This document shows, piece after piece, positions 1 through 15,015 of a stretch of DNA of 39,524 nt (position 1 is the stretch's first letter; every line of letters starts with the position of its first letter). The notes below the pieces were generated by a model. It saw only the letters and a program-made list of their open reading frames with translations. It was not told where the DNA came from and did no database searches. Origin of the DNA: Candidatus Omnitrophota bacterium (GTDB taxonomy: Bacteria > Omnitrophota > Gorgyraeia > Aquiviventales > Aquiviventaceae); the NCBI GenBank assembly GCA_023247235.1, contig JAHFGW010000002.1, forward strand, positions 8,722-48,245, written 5' to 3'. Position numbers and translations under genes: made by a program.

Positions 1-1152
1 ATCTACCTCGACTATTACGGCCAGACGCCGGTGCTGCCTGAAGTCGGGCGGGCGGTGGCCGAGGCCTTGGGAGAGTTCGGCAACCCGTCCTCGATCCATC
101 GCGAGGGCCAGCGCGCCAGGCAGATGGTGGAGCGCGCCCGCGGGCAAGCCGCCGCGCTGCTGAACGCCAAAGCCGACGAGATCTGCTTCACCTCCTGCGG
201 AACCGAAGCCAATAACTGGGCGCTGCGCGGCCTGTTTGCCGCCAACCGCCGCAAGGGCGCCCACCTGGTCATCTCGGCCATCGAGCATCCCTCGGTCAGC
301 CTGGTCGCGCGGCGACTGGAATTGGATGGCGCGCACGTGACGATCCTGCCAGTCGATCATGAGGGTGTTGTGTCGCACGATGCGCTGCGCGCGGCCATCA
401 AACCGGACACCGTGCTCGTCTCCATCATGCTGGCCAACGGCGAAGTCGGCACGATCGAGCCCATCGCTGAGCTGGCCGAGATCGCCCATGAGCAGGGCGC
501 GCTCTTTCACACGGATGCGATCGCCGCGGTCGGGCACATGCCAGTGGACGTGAAGGCGCTCACGATTGATGCGCTGAGTTTTGCGGCGAACCAATTCTAT
601 GGGCCGCCTGGCGCGGCGGGACTGTTCGTGCGCCAAGGCGTGCGCATCCTGCCGTTGTTGGAAGGCGGCGGGCAAGAGCACGGCAGCCGCTCAGGCACCG
701 AGGGGCTGGCAGCGATCGTCGGCCTGGGGGCTGCCGCGGAGCTGGCGCGGCGCGATTTGCCTGCGCGAGGGCCTCGGCTGCGGCGGTTGCGGGATCGGCT
801 GCGCCAAGGACTTGAGGCGAAGCTTGAGGCGGTCCGTGTGCATGGATCATGGACCGAGCGGCTGCCGCATAACCTGCACGTGTGTCTTGATGGGCTCTCC
901 AGCGAATCGCTGATCCTCGGGCTTGATGAGGCCGGCCTCGCCGCAGGGCTTGGCTCCGCATGCAACTCCAAGGCGCTGCGGCCCTCGCACGTCCTGAAGG
1001 CGATGGGATTGACCGACGAACAGGCCAAGGGCGCGCTGGTGCTCACCGTCGGCGTCCCCACTACCGAGGCGGAGCTTGAGGAATCGGCTGAGCTGATCCC
1101 TCGGGTGGCCGAACGGATTCGGCGGGTCAGCGCGCTGACAAGCCGCGCATGA
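1..1152 (+). CDS. Cysteine desulfurase (NifS/IscS) homolog lacking the PLP lysine; 5' partial
   Basis: The reading frame is open from base 1 (IYLDYYGQTP, the usual IYLDxxATTP start), so the true start lies just upstream and the GTG at 31 is internal. The fold is clearly class V aminotransferase, NifS/IscS type: SCGTEANN, SAIEHPSV with the active-site His, HTDA with the PLP-facing Asp, and GSACNS holding the persulfide Cys (bases 961-963). The PLP pocket is eroded. The SxHK motif that carries the Schiff-base lysine reads SFAANQF (Gln at 592-594), NNE is NGE, the Gln of DxxQ is Ala, and the RFSLGR arginine region reads LTVGV. The frame is intact over its whole length, so this is not a decayed gene. 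Normal desulfurase activity is unlikely; a scaffold, persulfide-carrier or cluster-ligand role is inference. It overlaps the next gene by ATGA. Confidence 0.85.
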   Translation: MYLDYYGQTPVLPEVGRAVAEALGEFGNPSSIHREGQRARQMVERARGQAAALLNAKADEICFTSCGTEANNWALRGLFAANRRKGAHLVISAIEHPSVSLVARRLELDGAHVTILPVDHEGVVSHDALRAAIKPDTVLVSIMLANGEVGTIEPIAELAEIAHEQGALFHTDAIAAVGHMPVDVKALTIDALSFAANQFYGPPGAAGLFVRQGVRILPLLEGGGQEHGSRSGTEGLAAIVGLGAAAELARRDLPARGPRLRRLRDRLRQGLEAKLEAVRVHGSWTERLPHNLHVCLDGLSSESLILGLDEAGLAAGLGSACNSKALRPSHVLKAMGLTDEQAKGALVLTVGVPTTEAELEESAELIPRVAERIRRVSALTSRA

Positions 1153-2348
1153 AATACGTGGTGATTCTTCCCGATGGCGTGTCTGATGTGCCCATCGCCT
1201 CACTGGGCAACAAGACGCCTCTTGAAGTCGCCACGCATCCGAACATGGATTGGATCGCGCGCGAAGGCCTCACCGGCTGGGCGCATACCATTCCGCAGGG
1301 CTTCAAGCCCGGCTCTGATGTCGGGTGCATGAGCGTCTTCGGCTACGATCCTCGCACGCACTTCACCGGGCGCGCTCCGCTGGAGGCGGCGGCCCAGGGC
1401 ATCAGCTTGCGCAATGGGGACGTCGCCTTCCGCTGCAATACCGTGACCGTGGAAGACGGCATCATGGCGGATTACTCGGCCGGCCACATCGACACCCAGG
1501 ATGCCGTGGAGCTCATCAAAGCGGTCCACGAGCGGCTGAAGAGCGAGGGCCTGCATTTTTATCCCGGCGTCTCCTACCGGCATCTGGCCTTGGCGCATGG
1601 CGCGGACTTTGCGAAGACCCAGTGCACGCCCCCCCATGACATCTCAGGCCAACCGATCGCTTCGCATCTGCCCACCGGTCCCGGGTCGGATCTGCTGCGG
1701 CGGGTCATGGAGGCTTCGGTCACGATCCTCAAAGAGCACCCGGTGACGCAGCGACGGCTTCACGCCGGCAAGCGGCCGGCGACCATGCTGTGGTTCTGGG
1801 GCCAGGGCACCGCGGCGAGCTTTCCGCCGTTTCAACGGCAGTACGGGCTGCGCGGGGCCTGCATCAGCGCGGTAGACATCGTGCGAGGGTTGGGCCGGCT
1901 GGTGGGGTTTGACATCATCCAGGTGCCGGGTATCACCGGCTATTTTGATACGAACTACAAGGGCAAGGCAGACTACGCGTTGAAGGCCCTGGACGATCAT
2001 GACTTCGTGCTGATCCACATCGAGTCGACGGATGAAGCCGGGCACATGGGCGATGCGAAGAAAAAGATTCAAGCGATCGAGGACACGGATCGGCTCGTGG
2101 TCGGCACCGTGCTGGAGGGGCTGAAGCGGCGCGGAGAGCCGCATGCCGTCTTGCTCGTGTGCGACCATCCGACCAGCACCGCGCTGAAAACGCACATCGC
2201 GGAGCCGGTGCCCTTTGCCCTCTATGTGACAGGGGTCGAGAAGGACGGCGCGAGCGCCTATAATGAGGTGGCCATCAAAGGCTCGCGCCGCCGGTTTGAG
2301 AACGGCTTTGAGCTCATGGGTTTTTTCCTCAGGCAGAGTGCACCGTGA
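1149..2348 (+). CDS. apgM: 2,3-bisphosphoglycerate-independent phosphoglycerate mutase, archaeal (ApgM) type
   Basis: This enzyme interconverts 3- and 2-phosphoglycerate in glycolysis and gluconeogenesis, in the cytoplasm, with two divalent metals. The 399 aa length fits the ApgM family of the alkaline phosphatase superfamily. Visible motifs are the N-terminal metal site ILPDGVSD, the phospho-acceptor serine region KPGSDVGCMSVFGYDP, the metal-binding EAGHMGD and VCDHPTS, and the later KTHIAEPVPF. The start ATG overlaps the stop of the desulfurase-like gene as ATGA, so the two are probably translationally coupled. That pairing has no obvious metabolic logic. Phosphonopyruvate decarboxylase-related paralogs share the fold, but the glycolytic role is the most likely. 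Confidence 0.9.
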   Translation: MKYVVILPDGVSDVPIASLGNKTPLEVATHPNMDWIAREGLTGWAHTIPQGFKPGSDVGCMSVFGYDPRTHFTGRAPLEAAAQGISLRNGDVAFRCNTVTVEDGIMADYSAGHIDTQDAVELIKAVHERLKSEGLHFYPGVSYRHLALAHGADFAKTQCTPPHDISGQPIASHLPTGPGSDLLRRVMEASVTILKEHPVTQRRLHAGKRPATMLWFWGQGTAASFPPFQRQYGLRGACISAVDIVRGLGRLVGFDIIQVPGITGYFDTNYKGKADYALKALDDHDFVLIHIESTDEAGHMGDAKKKIQAIEDTDRLVVGTVLEGLKRRGEPHAVLLVCDHPTSTALKTHIAEPVPFALYVTGVEKDGASAYNEVAIKGSRRRFENGFELMGFFLRQSAP

Positions 2349-2424
2349 AAATGGACACGTCCCCATTTTTCGTTCAGGTCAAACGTGGTGATGTTTCGAG
2401 GAAAATCGAAGCGTCCCCATTTTT
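2348..2424. repeat. Paired CGTCCCCATTTTT repeat in the apgM-pepA gap
   Basis: CGTCCCCATTTTT occurs twice as an exact 13-bp direct repeat, at 2358-2370 and 2412-2424. The first copy is preceded by AAAATGG, which makes an imperfect palindrome (AAAATGG ... CCATTTT). A short TTCGA/TCGAA hairpin lies just before the second copy. The repeat fills the gap up to the Shine-Dalgarno AGAGGAGG (2425-2432) of pepA. The bases are much more AT-rich than the flanking genes. It may be a small dispersed or REP-like repeat; only a genome-wide search can say. Confidence 0.55.
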
Positions 2425-2436
2425 AGAGGAGGTTCG

Positions 2437-8258: not shown

Positions 8259-10103
8259 ATGGCACAAGCGCGCGATGAGTTGACGGTATGGATCGGCGGG
8301 GCCGCCGGGGACGGGATCGCCTCGGCCGGAGAGTCGTTCTCGAAGGCCTGCACCCGCGCAGGCTACCATGTCTTTGCCTATAACAGCTACCAGTCGGTGA
8401 TCCGCGGCGGCCACGTCTGCATGCACGTCCGCATCGGCCGCCAGAAGGTCTGGACGCACGGCGATACGTGCAACTACCTGATCGCCCTGAACCAGGACAC
8501 CTTCAAGCGGTATGCCAAGAAGGTGACGCCCGGCGGGGCCGTGTTCTACAACACGGACAAGTTCAAGGCCTCAGCGAGCGACGTAGGCCCGGACGTGCAG
8601 CTCATCGGCCTGCCCGTTATGGAGCTGGTGGGCAACCAGTTGATGCAGAATACGGCGCTGATGGGCGCGTTCCTGGGCGCCGTCGGGCTTGACCCGACCA
8701 AGATGCGCGAACTCATCCAAGAGCGATTTACGAAGAAGGGCGAGGCGGTCATCAAGGCCAACGTCGACGCCTTCGACAAGGGCATCGACTTCGCCAACAC
8801 GAAGGCCAAACCGGCCGGGGTGCGCATCGGCGCCTCCGACGGCAAGCCGCGCTTGCTGGGCAGCGGCAACGCGATCGTGGGCTTCGGCGCGGTGGCCGCC
8901 GGCTGCCAGTTCTACGCGGCCTACCCCATGACTCCCGCGTCCTCCATCCTGCATTGGCTCGCGCAGTACGGGCCCAAGGCCGGCATGCTGGTCAAGCAGG
9001 CCGAGGATGAAATTGCAGTGATCAACATGACCGTCGGCGCCGCCCACGCCGGCGTCCGGGCCATGTGCGGCACCTCCGGCGGAGGCTTTGCGCTCATGAC
9101 CGAGGGGATCGGCGAAGCGGGCATGACCGAGACGCCGATCGTCATCCTGGAGGCCCAGCGGGGCGGGCCCTCCACCGGGCTGCCGACCAAGACGGAGCAA
9201 GCCGACCTCTTTCAGGTGCTCGGCGCGTCGCAGGGCGACTTTCCCAAGATCGTCCTGGCTCCCTGCACGCTGCCCGAATGTTTCACGCTGACCATCCGCG
9301 CCTTCAACCTCGCCGATCGCTACCAGTGCCCCGTCATCATCATGTCTGATCTCTACCTGGCCGAGCGCAATGAGACGCTCGAGGGGCTGGAGATCCGCAA
9401 CATCCCGATTGACCGCGGGCCGCTGCTCACGCAATGGAACGGCGCGGCCTACCACCGGTATGAGGACACGCCGACCGGCGTCTCGCCGCGCGCGATCCCC
9501 GGGACGGAGGGCGCCGTGCATGTGGCGGCGACCGACGAGCATGACGAGGATGGAATTCTGATCAGCGATGTCTTCTCGAACCCGCCGGCGCGCGTGAAGA
9601 TCATGAGCAAGCGCATGCGGAAGATCGAGCATGCGCTCAAAGAGCTGCCGCCGCCGCAGCTTGAGGGGCCGGCCGATGCCGAGCTCACGCTCGTGGGCTG
9701 GGGCTCGACCTATTCCGTCCTGCGCGAGGCCATGGATGCGCTGAACCGCGAGGGCCTGTCCGTGAATCTCCTGGCGCCGCGCGTGCTCGCGCCGTTCCAG
9801 GGCGAAGCTGTTGGGAAGCTGCTGGCCGGCACGAAGATCACCCTGGCGGTCGAAGCCAACTACACCGGGCAGCTCGCCCGGCTCATCCGCATGGAAACGG
9901 GGTTCGCCATCCGCCACCACCTGCACAAGTTCGATGGGGAGCCGTTTGAGCCGCGGCAGGTCATCGACCACGCCCGGACGATTCTCAAGACGAAGCCGAA
10001 GGAGCCGGTGATCGTCATCGCGGTCAGCGATGAGGGATTGCCTCCGGATTTCTCGCCGATCGCCTCGCCCGCTCTGGGGGCCGAGACGGCGCGCCAACAT
10101 TAA
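8259..10103 (+). CDS. 2-oxoacid:ferredoxin oxidoreductase, fused gamma-alpha subunit (first copy)
   Basis: The 614 aa protein carries an N-terminal gamma domain (GGAAGDGIASAGESF, then SVIRGGH, about residues 1-190). An alpha domain follows, with GFGAVAAGCQFYAAYPMTP and the TGLPTKTEQADL block. With the beta subunit encoded next, it oxidatively decarboxylates a 2-oxoacid and reduces ferredoxin, or runs in reverse. Two-subunit enzymes of this layout include 2-oxoglutarate and broad-specificity 2-oxoacid oxidoreductases; the substrate cannot be read safely from sequence. It lies 8 bases after the aldolase gene, and its closest relative in the window is the copy at 12417. Confidence 0.9.
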   Translation: MAQARDELTVWIGGAAGDGIASAGESFSKACTRAGYHVFAYNSYQSVIRGGHVCMHVRIGRQKVWTHGDTCNYLIALNQDTFKRYAKKVTPGGAVFYNTDKFKASASDVGPDVQLIGLPVMELVGNQLMQNTALMGAFLGAVGLDPTKMRELIQERFTKKGEAVIKANVDAFDKGIDFANTKAKPAGVRIGASDGKPRLLGSGNAIVGFGAVAAGCQFYAAYPMTPASSILHWLAQYGPKAGMLVKQAEDEIAVINMTVGAAHAGVRAMCGTSGGGFALMTEGIGEAGMTETPIVILEAQRGGPSTGLPTKTEQADLFQVLGASQGDFPKIVLAPCTLPECFTLTIRAFNLADRYQCPVIIMSDLYLAERNETLEGLEIRNIPIDRGPLLTQWNGAAYHRYEDTPTGVSPRAIPGTEGAVHVAATDEHDEDGILISDVFSNPPARVKIMSKRMRKIEHALKELPPPQLEGPADAELTLVGWGSTYSVLREAMDALNREGLSVNLLAPRVLAPFQGEAVGKLLAGTKITLAVEANYTGQLARLIRMETGFAIRHHLHKFDGEPFEPRQVIDHARTILKTKPKEPVIVIAVSDEGLPPDFSPIASPALGAETARQH

Positions 10104-10121
10104 CCTAAGGGAGCGAGCTTG

Positions 10122-10982
10122 ATGGCAGAAGTGAAAGAGTTTGCCGGGAAGATCAAGCCGGACTGGTGTCCGGGCTGCGGGGACTACGGGGTGCTCAACG
10201 CCCTCCAGCGGGCGCTGGCCGATCTGGACATCGCGCCCCATAACGTGCTGGTGGTGTCGGGCATCGGGTGTTCCTCGAACCTGCCCGGCTTCATCAATGC
10301 CTACGGGTTCCACGGGCTGCACGGGCGGTCGCTGCCGGTCGCAGCCGGCGCGCGGCTGGCCAACCACGGGCTCACGGTGCTGGTCACCGGCGGCGACGGG
10401 GACGGCTACGGGATCGGAGTGGGCCACTTCGTCCATACCTGCCGGCGCAACATCAACATGACATACATCGTCATGGACAACCAGATCTACGGCCTGACGA
10501 CCGGGCAGGCCTCGCCGACGACGGAAAAAGACATCCGGACCAAGTCCACGCCGGAGGGCACGATCGAGATCCCGCTCAACCCGATCGCGCTGGCGCTCAC
10601 CTGCGGCGCGACGTATGTGGCCCGCGGGTTCTCGGGGGAAAACCTGCAGCTGGCCAATCTCCTCAAGGGGGCGATTGAGCACAAGGGCTTCTCGCTGGTT
10701 GATGTGTTCTCGCCGTGCGTGACCTACAACAAGCACAACACCTATCCGTGGTTCCGCGAGCGGGTCTACAAGCTGGAAGACGAGCGGCACGACCCCTCGG
10801 ATTTCCGCCTGGCGATGGAGAAGGCGTTCGAGTGGGGCGCGCGCATCCCGATCGGCCTGTTCTACAAGGTGGAGCGGCCGACCTACGAGGATGAAGATCC
10901 CACGCTGCGCAGCGGCATCCCGCTGGTCAAGCAGCCGGCGGGGCGCGCGAACCTCGCGGAGATTATGCAGGATTTCATGTGA
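10122..10982 (+). CDS. 2-oxoacid:ferredoxin oxidoreductase, beta subunit (first copy)
   Basis: This is the TPP- and [4Fe-4S]-binding beta subunit, 286 aa. Cluster ligands are visible as CPGCGDYG, the cysteine in GIGCSSN and the one in DVFSPCVTYN. The TPP/Mg motif is GGDGDGYGIG with MDNQIYGLTTGQ after it. The start ATG 10122 is preferred over TTG 10119 because AAGGGAG lies eight bases upstream. There is no fused ferredoxin (delta) domain, so an external ferredoxin must be the electron carrier. The stop overlaps the Rieske gene as TGATG. Confidence 0.92.
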   Translation: MAEVKEFAGKIKPDWCPGCGDYGVLNALQRALADLDIAPHNVLVVSGIGCSSNLPGFINAYGFHGLHGRSLPVAAGARLANHGLTVLVTGGDGDGYGIGVGHFVHTCRRNINMTYIVMDNQIYGLTTGQASPTTEKDIRTKSTPEGTIEIPLNPIALALTCGATYVARGFSGENLQLANLLKGAIEHKGFSLVDVFSPCVTYNKHNTYPWFRERVYKLEDERHDPSDFRLAMEKAFEWGARIPIGLFYKVERPTYEDEDPTLRSGIPLVKQPAGRANLAEIMQDFM

Positions 10983-11290: not shown

Positions 11291-11421
11291 TTCATTGTTG
11301 ATTGTTCATTGTTCATAGTAAGAGCTGGAGGTCAGAGGAGTTCGTTGATGGATGCCGTCGGCGCAGGCCGGCGATTTCATAGACGGCTCTTACTACGAAC
11401 TATGAACAACGAACAATGAAC
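11291..11421. repeat. Heptamer-arm inverted repeat element A
   Basis: The left arm is four 7-nt units (TTCATTG, TTGATTG, TTCATTG, TTCATAG; 11291-11318) plus TAAGAGC. The right arm is GCTCTTA followed by CTACGAA, CTATGAA, CAACGAA and CAATGAA (11386-11420), the reverse complement. The 36-nt arms match at 32 positions. The centre of about 60 bases is unrelated. The left arm begins right after the Rieske stop codon, and the last heptamer contains the ATG at 11416, so the element fills the whole intergenic space. Its architecture matches elements B and C, with a different heptamer. Confidence 0.85.
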
Positions 11422-11439
11422 AAGACCGCTAGTGTTTGC

Positions 11440-12417
11440 ATGGAAAAAAAGTGTGTGGCAATGCTCTCCGGCGGCCTGGACAGCTCCCTGGCCGCGCGCT
11501 TGATGCTCAAGCAGGGCATCGAGGTGCACGGCCTCTACCTCTCCCTGAGCTGGGGCTGCTGCGACAAGGACAAAGCCGCCTCGGCGGCCCGCCAGCTCGG
11601 CATTCCCCTCATGGTACTGGGCGTCGGGGACGCCTACCTCGACGTCATCCGCACCCCCAAGTACGGCTACGGGACCGGCATGAACCCATGCGTGGACTGC
11701 CGCATCTACATGTTCCGCATTGCTCGCCGCTACATGGAAGAGCTCGGCGCCGGGTTCGTGGTGACCGGCGAAGTCGTGGGCCAGCGGCCCATGTCGCAGA
11801 TGCGCAGGCCCTTAGAGCTGATCGAAGCGGAAAGCGGGCTCGAGGGATTACTGGTCCGCCCGCTGTCGGCGCAACTGCTGGACCCGACGCTGCCGGAACT
11901 GCTGGGCGTCGTCGACCGGCAGCAGCTGCTGCGTGTCGCCGGCCGCTCGCGCCAGGAGCAGCTGGCGCTCGCACGGGCCGAAGCGCTCACCGAATATTCC
12001 ACCCCCGCGGGCGGCTGTTTGCTGACGGACCCCCACTTTGCGAAGAAAACGCGCGATCTATTCGAGCACGAGGAGCGGCCCACCACGAAGGATATGGAGC
12101 TCCTCACCCTGGGACGGCACTATCGCTTGGGACCACGCGCCAAGCTGATCCTCGGCCGCAATGAGCTGGAAAACCTGATGCTGGAAGGCCATGCGGAGCC
12201 GGGGTACCGGTGCCTGCGGCCGACATTTCCAGGACCGACCGCACTCCTGGTCGGGCCTTGCCCCGAGGAGCTTGAGCCGGTGGCGGTCCGCTTAATCGTG
12301 CAGCACACCAAGCCGGAGAAGCTTCCGCCAGAGGGGTCGTTGGAATTCTGGCGCGACGGACAGCCCTGGAGCGCGACACGGCCTCCCGTGGCGGAGGCGG
12401 CGGTCGCGGCACTCTGA
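11440..12417 (+). CDS. ThiI/MnmA-like PP-loop thiolation protein
   Basis: The N-terminal PP-loop ATP pyrophosphatase motif AMLSGGLDSSLAA and the central NPCVDCRIYMF cysteine pair place it in the tRNA-thiouridine synthase group. That group activates a tRNA uridine as an adenylate and inserts sulfur from a persulfide or sulfide donor. A further AGGCLLTDPHFAKK block precedes a C-terminal region of about 120 aa that resembles the NFACT-R-like domain of related proteins. I chose ATG 11440 (325 aa) because the upstream ATG 11416 lies in repeat element A; no clear SD supports either. The substrate is unproven. Its stop overlaps the second korA (TGATG). Confidence 0.75.
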   Translation: MEKKCVAMLSGGLDSSLAARLMLKQGIEVHGLYLSLSWGCCDKDKAASAARQLGIPLMVLGVGDAYLDVIRTPKYGYGTGMNPCVDCRIYMFRIARRYMEELGAGFVVTGEVVGQRPMSQMRRPLELIEAESGLEGLLVRPLSAQLLDPTLPELLGVVDRQQLLRVAGRSRQEQLALARAEALTEYSTPAGGCLLTDPHFAKKTRDLFEHEERPTTKDMELLTLGRHYRLGPRAKLILGRNELENLMLEGHAEPGYRCLRPTFPGPTALLVGPCPEELEPVAVRLIVQHTKPEKLPPEGSLEFWRDGQPWSATRPPVAEAAVAAL

Positions 12418-14201
12418 TGGCAAAGAACAGCACATCCAAGCACGTCGATTACGTCTTCCGAATCGGCGGAGAAGGCGGCGAGGGCGTCATCAGCACCGGC
12501 GAGCTCTTGACCCTGACCTTGGCGCGCGCCGGCTACGAGATCTATACCTTCCGCACTTATCCGGCCGAGATCAAAGGCGGCCACGCGAACTACCAGGTGC
12601 GCGCCTCCGACAGGCTCCTGCTGTCTCAGGGCACCAACGTCGATGTGCTGGTCGCGTTTAATGAAGAGGCGTATCAGAAGCACGTCGGCGATCTGCGCAA
12701 GGGCGGCGTCGTGATCTACGACTCCGACAGCTTCACGGCCGCCTCGCACGACTCGGCCATCCTCTATAGCGTGCCCCTGGCGTCGCTGGCGACGGAGAAA
12801 GTCGGCGTCAAGCTCACCAAGAACATTGTGGCGCTGGGGGTGGTCGCCCACCTCTTCGAGATTCCCTTGGAGGCGTTTGCTGACCTCTTGCGGGACCGGT
12901 TCCGGCACAAAGGCGAAATGGTCGTGCAGAAAAACCTGCAGGCGCTGCAGGTGGGCGCCGACTACATCAAGCAGCAGACCAAGCGCGACGCGATCCGGCT
13001 GGGGCCTGGACCGCGCCAGACGAAGGAGCTGGTGCTGTCGGGCAACGAGTCCTTCGCGTTGGGCGCGATCGCCGCAGGCTGCCGCATCTACGCGGGCTAT
13101 CCCATTACGCCGGCGACCGACATCATGGAGTTCCTCGCGAAGGAGCTGCCCAAGATCGGCGGCTACGTCGTGCAGACCGAAGACGAGATCGCCGCGGTCG
13201 GCGTCGTCCTGGGCGCATCCTACGCGGGCAAGAAGGCCATGACGGCGACGTCGGGGCCGGGTTTCTCCCTCATGACCGAGATGATCGGGCTGGCGGTGAC
13301 GGCGGAGATCCCGGCCGTGATCGTCGATGTGCAGCGCGTGGGCCCCTCGACGGGCATGCCGACCAAAACCGAGCAGGGGGACTTGTACCTGGCCTGCTAT
13401 GGCGGACACGGTAACTGCCCGCGCATCGTCCTGGCGCTCTCCAGCGTTGAGGACGCGTTTTACAGCGCGATCCGCGCCTTCAACATCGCCGAGCAATTCC
13501 AGATGCCGGTGATCGTGCTGTCCGACCAATACCTCGGGCATCGCAAGGCTACCGTTCCGGTGCCGGATCCCTCCAAGGTCCCGGTCATCAACCGGCGCAC
13601 GCCGACGCCGGAGGAGCTGAAGCAGTACAAGCGGTACAGCTTCACGTCGACGCATATCTCGCCGATGGCGATCCCCGGGGTCCACGAGGTCGGCTACGTC
13701 GCCACGGGCCTGGAGCACGATGAAATCGGGTATCCGGCGGCCTCGAATCATCTCAACCATCTCGCGATGACCCGCAAGCGCTACGGCAAATTCCATCAGG
13801 TCGAGGCGATCGCTAATGAGCTGACGCGCCAGTACGGCGAGGAGCATCCTGAAATCGCCATCATCGGCTGGGGCTCGACCGAGGGCGTCATCCGCGAAGC
13901 GGTCCAACTGGCCCTGGAGGCGGGCTACTCCGTCGGCGCGCTGCACCCCAAGATCGTCTATCCCCAGCCGCTGGCCCGGCTGCGCGCCTTCCTCGAAGGC
14001 GCCAAGGCCGTGATCATTCCGGAAGTCAACTTCACGGGGCAGTTCGCGACGCTGCTGCGCAAGCGGTTCGCCGTCGATTTCATCCAGCTCAACAAGTGCA
14101 TTGGCCTGCCGTTTACCCCGCAGGAGATCGTCGATAAGATCGAGGAGGTCGCTCGCCATGTCAACAGCCGTCGACGCGAAGTACACGCCGCAAAGCTATA
14201 A
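12417..14201 (+). CDS. 2-oxoacid:ferredoxin oxidoreductase, fused gamma-alpha subunit (second copy)
   Basis: This 594 aa paralog of the protein at 8259 has the same gamma (GGEGGEGVISTGELL, EIKGGHANYQV) then alpha (GCRIYAGYPITPATDI, TGMPTKTEQGDL) order. It differs enough from the first copy to imply an old duplication and a different 2-oxoacid substrate, for example 2-oxoglutarate against pyruvate or a branched-chain acid; this assignment is inference. The start overlaps the thiolation gene stop, and the end overlaps the next beta-subunit gene by 44 bases, so the genes are translationally coupled. Confidence 0.9.
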   Translation: MAKNSTSKHVDYVFRIGGEGGEGVISTGELLTLTLARAGYEIYTFRTYPAEIKGGHANYQVRASDRLLLSQGTNVDVLVAFNEEAYQKHVGDLRKGGVVIYDSDSFTAASHDSAILYSVPLASLATEKVGVKLTKNIVALGVVAHLFEIPLEAFADLLRDRFRHKGEMVVQKNLQALQVGADYIKQQTKRDAIRLGPGPRQTKELVLSGNESFALGAIAAGCRIYAGYPITPATDIMEFLAKELPKIGGYVVQTEDEIAAVGVVLGASYAGKKAMTATSGPGFSLMTEMIGLAVTAEIPAVIVDVQRVGPSTGMPTKTEQGDLYLACYGGHGNCPRIVLALSSVEDAFYSAIRAFNIAEQFQMPVIVLSDQYLGHRKATVPVPDPSKVPVINRRTPTPEELKQYKRYSFTSTHISPMAIPGVHEVGYVATGLEHDEIGYPAASNHLNHLAMTRKRYGKFHQVEAIANELTRQYGEEHPEIAIIGWGSTEGVIREAVQLALEAGYSVGALHPKIVYPQPLARLRAFLEGAKAVIIPEVNFTGQFATLLRKRFAVDFIQLNKCIGLPFTPQEIVDKIEEVARHVNSRRREVHAAKL

Positions 14202-15015
14202 GACCGACGAACACCCGATCTGGTGCCCCGGGTGCGGGGACTTCGGGGTGCTCGCCTCGCTCTATAACTCGCTGGCGGGCCTTAAGATCGACCCGAAGAA
14301 CCTGGTCGTCGTCTCCGGCATCGGCTGCTCCGGGCGCACGCCGGGCTTCGTGAAGTCGTTCGGCTTCCACGCGGTCCATGGCCGCGTCCTGCCCGTCGCC
14401 CTGGGCGTCAAGGTGGCCAACCCCGAGCTGACGGTGATCGGCGCCGGCGGCGATGGAGACGGTTTTGCGATCGGCGGAGGCCATATCGCGCACGCCGCGC
14501 GCCGCAACCCGGACCTCACCTACCTCATCATGGACAATTCGACCTATGGGCTCACCAAAGGGCAGTACTCGCCCACCTCGCCGGTGGGCTACAAGGCGGG
14601 GTCGACGCCCTACGGCAACATCGAGCGGCCGCTCAATCCGCTGGCGATGCTCATCGCCTACGGCGCGACCTTCATCGCGCAGGGCTATTCGGGCAAGCCC
14701 AAGGAGCTGACGGACCTGATCACGCGGTCGATTCGGCACAAAGGCTTCGCGTTCGTGAACATCATCAGCCCCTGCATCACGTTCTACAATACCTACAAGG
14801 TGATCCCGCCGCGCCTGGCCGAGGTCCCGCGCGATCACGATACCTCCAGCCGCCCGAAGGCCTTCGAGCTGGCGCTTCAGGACGATCACATCACCCTCGG
14901 CGTCTTCTACGAGGCGCGCCTGCCCACCTTCGAAGAAGGGGTCGCCGACGTCATCCGCCACGCCCAGGCCGCCGGGCCCTCGCGCCTGGAGCAGATCTTC
15001 GCCGAGTTCTCGTGA
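14158..15015 (+). CDS. 2-oxoacid:ferredoxin oxidoreductase, beta subunit (second copy)
   Basis: This TPP/[4Fe-4S] beta subunit (285 aa) shows CPGCGDFG, GIGCSGRTPGF and NIISPCITF as cluster ligands and AGGDGDGFAIGGGH as the TPP/Mg site. ATG 14158 is chosen because GAGGAGG lies nine bases upstream; the track start 14101 extends into an out-of-frame part of korA. It pairs with the gamma-alpha gene it overlaps. The active-site loop GLTKGQYSPTSP differs from GLTTGQASPTT in the first copy, in a region near the substrate, which supports different specificities. Confidence 0.92.
   Translation: MSTAVDAKYTPQSYKTDEHPIWCPGCGDFGVLASLYNSLAGLKIDPKNLVVVSGIGCSGRTPGFVKSFGFHAVHGRVLPVALGVKVANPELTVIGAGGDGDGFAIGGGHIAHAARRNPDLTYLIMDNSTYGLTKGQYSPTSPVGYKAGSTPYGNIERPLNPLAMLIAYGATFIAQGYSGKPKELTDLITRSIRHKGFAFVNIISPCITFYNTYKVIPPRLAEVPRDHDTSSRPKAFELALQDDHITLGVFYEARLPTFEEGVADVIRHAQAAGPSRLEQIFAEFS

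Follow-up and report, generated by a model that had tools for sequence, protein, structure and literature searches.

The first gene of the window, by which we mean the whole stretch of 39,524 nucleotides of Candidatus Omnitrophota DNA that was analysed, encodes a homologue of IscS and NifS without the Schiff-base lysine and is, on sequence evidence, a bacterial counterpart of a rarely described kind of IscS that is not a desulfurase, placed in a different gene context. The lysine-less protein probably helps to build or hand over Fe-S clusters and would not itself be the supplier of sulfur. More specifically, we give an even chance to its being a non-desulfurase ('pseudo') IscS that acts in Fe-S cluster assembly through its loop cysteine alone. 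In the literature found, lysine-less IscS is known just as an oddity of Archaeoglobus fulgidus and one methanogen, and our search returned no described Omnitrophota or pseudoenzyme cysteine desulfurase on point; here, lysine-less IscS proteins make up a bacterial clade that is conserved and held by purifying selection.

Identity and active site of the lysine-less protein

The reading frame from 1 to 1152 is open, and there is not a single N in the window. A scaffold gap of 100 N directly 5' of the window (L007:8622-8721) truncates the 5' end of the gene, so that merely the gene start, amounting to the first few residues, is missing. The protein matched Aminotran_5 (PF00266; fold type I, class V) at 1.2e-60, and its best matches among the NCBIfam models were those for NifS and IscS, yet it stayed under their equivalog cut-offs (418.8 bits for the top model, TIGR03402, against the 530.75 needed). 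An AlphaFold2 model built from 15 members of the clade (mean pLDDT 78.5, pTM 0.82), of low confidence at the Cys loop (318-326) and at 221-233, was superposed by Foldseek on human NFS1, M. tuberculosis IscS and A. fulgidus IscS with a TM of about 0.9.

The protein was aligned on the numbering of E. coli IscS, and residues were counted over 83 aligned IscS-type rows, 32 lysine-less and 51 Lys-bearing (Table 1).

Table 1. Coordinates in the window of the lysine-less gene, its active-site codons and apgM (residue numbers of E. coli IscS)
Feature	Position	Strand	Remarks
Lysine-less IscS/NifS homologue	1..1152	+	383 aa readable in window; Pfam Aminotran_5
H104 kept	286..288	+	83/83 rows
N155 to Gly	439..441	+	G in 14/20 rows of Gln clade
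D180 kept	514..516	+	83/83 rows
Q183 to Ala	523..525	+	Q in 50/51 Lys-bearing, A in 26/32 lysine-less rows
S203 to Ala (583-585), H205 to Asn (589-591)	583..591	+	Beside lost Lys
Schiff-base Lys (K206) to Gln	592..594	+	Codon CAA
Persulfide-loop Cys (C328) kept	961..963	+	Codon TGC; 83/83 rows
New Lys at Cys+3 (A331)	970..972	+	Mark of lysine-less groups
R354 to Val	1039..1041	+	Arg in 51/51 Lys-bearing, 0/32 lysine-less rows
apgM (cofactor-independent phosphoglycerate mutase)	1149..2348	+	NF003242 541 bits, above cut-off; synteny

The original prediction had the Schiff-base lysine replaced by glutamine and the Asn, Gln and Arg that hold PLP or substrate changed as well, with the loop cysteine and the histidine kept. 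All of this was borne out, the three changes being N155G, Q183A and R354V, and S203A and H205N have to be added to its list. Position 205 is His in every one of the 51 Lys-bearing rows and Asn in 26 of the 32 lysine-less ones. In enzymes of this family Q183 contacts O3' of PLP, S203 and H205 are residues on its phosphate side, and R354 binds the carboxylate of the substrate. Around the invariant cysteine the window's family has the conserved motif GSACN[SA]K. Besides H104 and D180, the window protein retains T76, T243 and R240; in the family H104 provides ring stacking to PLP, D180 pairs with its pyridine N, and T76 and T243 are the phosphate Thr residues of the PLP site. Lysine or arginine at Cys+3, found in 30/32 lysine-less rows, is rare among Lys-bearing rows (the protein at locus L069 is an example), and the lysine there is the sole candidate that was found as a substitute for the lost one. 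Glutamine itself is unlikely to be a new catalytic residue, because Thr, Leu and Ala also occur at the same site.

Taken as a set, the residues argue for a loss of cysteine desulfuration rather than of the cofactor site. The description of the PLP pocket as dismantled fits K206, N155, Q183 and R354, and fails for H104, D180, T76 and T243, which are kept. Since the pocket is just partly dismantled, calling the product probably a non-PLP protein, as had been done, goes too far. The K206A mutant of E. coli IscS holds some PLP while its desulfurase activity is gone (PMC9978102), and by the legend of Fig. 1 in PMC9769115 the drawing of the A. fulgidus complex 4EB5 includes both PLP and a [2Fe-2S] cluster.

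Conservation, selection and phylogeny

Fifty-nine relatives were searched, and the lysine site could be read in 18 genomes of the window's family, including that of the window. Fourteen of the 18 have Gln there, two have Thr, one has Leu and one has Ala; none has Lys. The ratio dN/dS among family members was 0.10-0.21 (Nei-Gojobori); the protein is therefore under purifying selection, in line with the open frame and conserved protein that had been described. Although the window begins at a scaffold gap, which might raise the suspicion of a sequencing error or a decaying gene, we rule this out as having next to no probability, with 18/18 genomes concordant, dN/dS well below 1 and the cysteine invariant. 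In five family members (L021, L023, L024, L026 and L029) the lysine-less gene is lengthened by insertions of 11-64 aa that keep the frame and are unrelated, three of them at roughly one position.

In the best maximum-likelihood tree of 83 IscS-type proteins, calculated with the active-site columns removed, the lysine-less proteins fell into two groups. The bacterial group (n=20, support 100/100) has mostly Gln and in no case Lys at the site, and comprises the Omnitrophota family (f1), its order relative G027, the class relatives G049, G109 and G154, and single proteins from a 'Deltaproteobacteria' MAG placed in Myxococcota (L080), SZUA-191 (L064), Dehalococcoidia (L072) and Nitrospirota (L065). 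Loss of the lysine does mark a clade, which had been suggested as a check for the change to Gln; the site need not be Gln, however, as some members have Thr, Leu or Ala there. The Nitrospirota protein (L065:6623-7765) has Arg both at the lysine site (AAHR) and at Cys+3. The other group (n=12, support 100/95) holds A. fulgidus IscS with further archaeal and some bacterial proteins, and has Asp at the lysine site in 12/12 rows.

A single lysine-less clade appeared in 0/200 bootstrap trees and was not rejected by the AU test (p 0.246), and because of the latter result we do not firmly claim two independent losses of the lysine. Common to both groups are Q183A, H205N, the loss of R354 and Lys or Arg at Cys+3. 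This shared signature separates lysine-less IscS from real desulfurases, as which it is easily misannotated. If it is true that the pocket changes and the Cys+3 lysine arose twice, this would suggest that a single, particular new mechanism was selected for.

Gene neighbourhood and the source of sulfur

The stop codon of the lysine-less gene overlaps the start of apgM (ATGA, 1149-1152), and apgM is the downstream neighbour in most family members. The original prediction took the two genes to be coupled. We reject a functional coupling, as apgM, pepA, folE and thiC make up a mixed housekeeping string, and the neighbours to which the Omnitrophota family is linked lie upstream. Gene order in the family is gltB, Mrp/ApbC, DUF971 (GBBH_N), the lysine-less gene, apgM, pepA, folE and thiC, the DUF971 gene being seen in loci that span that stretch; sometimes a gene for a GYD-domain or other small protein is found 5' of the lysine-less gene, and often a CbiX-like gene stands between folE and thiC. 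The spacer between apgM and pepA in the window (2349-2436) contains CGTCCCCATTTTT twice, exact and 54 bp apart; with up to two mismatches allowed, there are 3 matches in the window against 0.5 expected, and the sequence resembles a small repeat element.

The Mrp proteins of the family combine FeS_assembly_P with a NUBPL-type ATPase, with the Walker motif present in 12/13 loci and CxxC in 13/13, and the DUF971 protein has CPCA[GSA]C in all 12 loci where it was found. In the window genome Mrp runs into the scaffold gap, and a DUF971 gene, if present, must fall inside that gap. The sister family (G027) has Mrp too, there directly upstream of the lysine-less gene. Mrp and DUF971 are both missing in G109 and G154 (f18), where the lysine-less gene precedes the pepA-folE string seen in the window's family and, in G109, follows gltB; the link to Mrp may for this reason be local synteny. 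No Mrp or DUF971 was detected near the Lys-bearing genes in the loci sampled, many of which have IscU nearby. Conversely, no IscU was found near the lysine-less gene in loci of the window's family, SufU-type genes being located elsewhere in the genomes. IscU is close to the lysine-less gene in 6/11 Asp-type loci and in L080, where the lysine-less gene precedes IscU and a weakly FeS_assembly_P-like gene. In G049 (L054:3604-10627) the order is that of an isc-type operon, with the lysine-less gene followed by Lys-bearing IscS, IscU, an IscA-like gene, Hsp70 and ferredoxin.

A second, complete desulfurase had been suggested as a check. None was found in the window genome, an assembly of 1.34 Mb in 46 contigs that is 90.7% complete, and neither were SufS, SufB or NifU_N; SufS-type matches are present in 21/26 family relatives, and in the two that were read (G021 and G016) the motifs of the lysine (SHK/AHK) and of the cysteine (RAGHHC) are intact, and the genes adjoin SufU and SufB-type genes. 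The absence from the window genome is read as a hole in the assembly, because an orthologue of the SUF regulator (Rrf2-type, 67% identity; G000:C9:752-1201, minus strand) points off a contig end that is 751 bp away, and in relatives sufB, sufS and sufU come after this regulator. The operon thus seems lost beyond the contig end, and we do not believe in a true lack of desulfurase. A search with the cysteine synthase that stands beside SUF in G016 gave just one 43% match and a weaker one, neither of them near C9.

Possible roles and comparison with known systems

The lysine-less protein keeps the IscS fold, a mobile Cys loop and probably a cofactor-sized pocket, and would be unable to form the internal aldimine or to bind the substrate carboxylate, for which reasons no sulfur is expected from free cysteine. 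The loop cysteine, aided by the new Lys or Arg next to it, may ligate a cluster as it forms or, alternatively, be a docking point for persulfide from the real desulfurase of the cell (SufS). In the Omnitrophota family the scaffold served would no longer be IscU, its place being taken by the Mrp/ApbC ATPase and the separate DUF971 protein encoded just upstream, which together may be equivalent to the Fe-S carrier HCF101. The fold, the residues, their conservation, the clade, the gene order and the lack of IscU nearby are observed directly; the loss of activity, the role of the cysteine as ligand or acceptor and the contact with Mrp are what we infer. HCF101 has the architecture FSCA-ParA-DUF971, and its DUF971 part bears a CxCxxC motif to which no function has been assigned (PMC7980591). 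An interaction between ApbC and NifS of H. pylori has been reported from a bacterial two-hybrid assay (PMC8144621). The fuller proposition, that in a bacterial lineage an IscS has turned into a dedicated, non-catalytic Cys donor for Mrp/DUF971 as a split HCF101 Fe-S carrier, forming an assembly or hand-over module free of IscU, and that the same pocket changes and Cys+3 lysine arose twice, in bacteria and in the A. fulgidus type, is tentative; as a whole we consider it possible but rather improbable.

The window also encodes a ThiI/MnmA-like PP-loop protein with NFACT-R_2 (11416-12417), a homologue of which is found near the isc operon of G049. The gene follows one for a Rieske-domain protein and stands between two close sets of alpha and beta genes of 2-oxoacid:ferredoxin oxidoreductase (8259-10982 and 12417-15015).

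Such a protein could be the recipient if the lysine-less protein were a sulfurtransferase, taking persulfide on its cysteine from SufS/SufU or from sulfide chemistry and passing it to thiolation enzymes of the ThiI/MnmA-like PP-loop type. The conserved Cys loop, the PP-loop gene itself and its homologue in G049, and thiC in the same gene string are in keeping with a relay of this kind, which we nevertheless hold to be unlikely, as some 10 kb separate the lysine-less gene from the PP-loop gene, which stands amid the oxidoreductase genes, and Mrp and DUF971 are both closer and more constant. Against assembly through the cysteine alone it may be said that the conserved pocket leaves room for chemistry with non-covalent PLP. 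The protein would then still be a PLP enzyme, with another or a weak activity, holding the cofactor non-covalently or using the Cys+3 lysine as Schiff-base or base residue. Retention of H104, D180, T76 and T243, the prevalence of a basic residue at Cys+3, the PLP drawn in the A. fulgidus complex and that left in E. coli K206A speak for an enzyme of this kind. R354, however, is gone from all 32 lysine-less rows and Q183 and H205 from nearly all, the K206A mutant has no desulfurase activity, and in A. fulgidus IscS the same set of changes is accompanied by a lack of such activity (PMC7585200). We therefore judge a retained PLP enzyme to be distinctly unlikely.

The lysine-less protein might also be a regulatory partner that tunes an active desulfurase by forming mixed dimers with it or by competing for its partners; in G049 a lysine-less gene directly abuts one for an active-type IscS that is followed by IscU. 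We hold this to be very unlikely, since no Lys-bearing IscS is encoded at the locus in the window's family, which relies on SufS, a different type of the fold, and strict conservation of the cysteine would be unnecessary for regulation. The conserved clade makes it testable whether IscS has a role in Fe-S assembly for which its cysteine suffices, and the HCF101-like carrier, an unexpected neighbour, offers a clue to the partner of the DUF971 part of HCF101.

The parallel with a lysine-less, inactive A. fulgidus IscS, drawn in the original prediction, is real, and a structure of the D199K mutant exists (4r5f). Two papers that cite the original work (PMC7585200, PMC9769115) describe A. fulgidus IscS, with Asp for Lys, as being without desulfurase activity and its Cys321 as the fourth ligand of a [2Fe-2S] cluster on IscU. 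Its structures (A. fulgidus IscS2; PDB 4EB5, 4EB7 and 4HVK, and the mutant 4R5F) have the same IscS fold as the model and appear at Foldseek ranks 5, 16-18 and 20. The two proteins share the loss of Lys and of R354, Q183A, H205N and Lys at Cys+3, as well as the loop Cys and H104 that both keep; by analogy, the bacterial group is one that retains what the A. fulgidus role needs (fold, loop and Cys) and drops what desulfuration needs. They differ in that the window protein has Gln at the lysine site and belongs to a separate clade in the best tree, and in that its family has Mrp and DUF971 where IscU is often a near neighbour in the A. fulgidus group. The C-terminal SPL segment, which most proteins of the Lys-bearing and A. 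fulgidus types have, is absent from the Omnitrophota group, which makes a direct transfer of the A. fulgidus IscU model to it doubtful. IscS1 of Methanosarcina acetivorans, likened here by description, is also reported to be without the catalytic Lys, and a mode of action like that of A. fulgidus IscS has been put forward for it (PMC7585200), but it is archaeal and encoded with IscU1. Fold, Cys loop, His104 and Asp180 are as in E. coli IscS, human NFS1 and H. pylori NifS; unlike these desulfurases, the window protein has neither the Schiff-base Lys nor the substrate Arg, and it scores under the equivalog cut-offs. HCF101 and Mrp/ApbC are to be compared as candidate partner, not as homologue: the upstream pair holds the FSCA-ParA and DUF971 (CxCxxC) parts that HCF101 unites in one protein, here as separate genes with the lysine-less gene after them.
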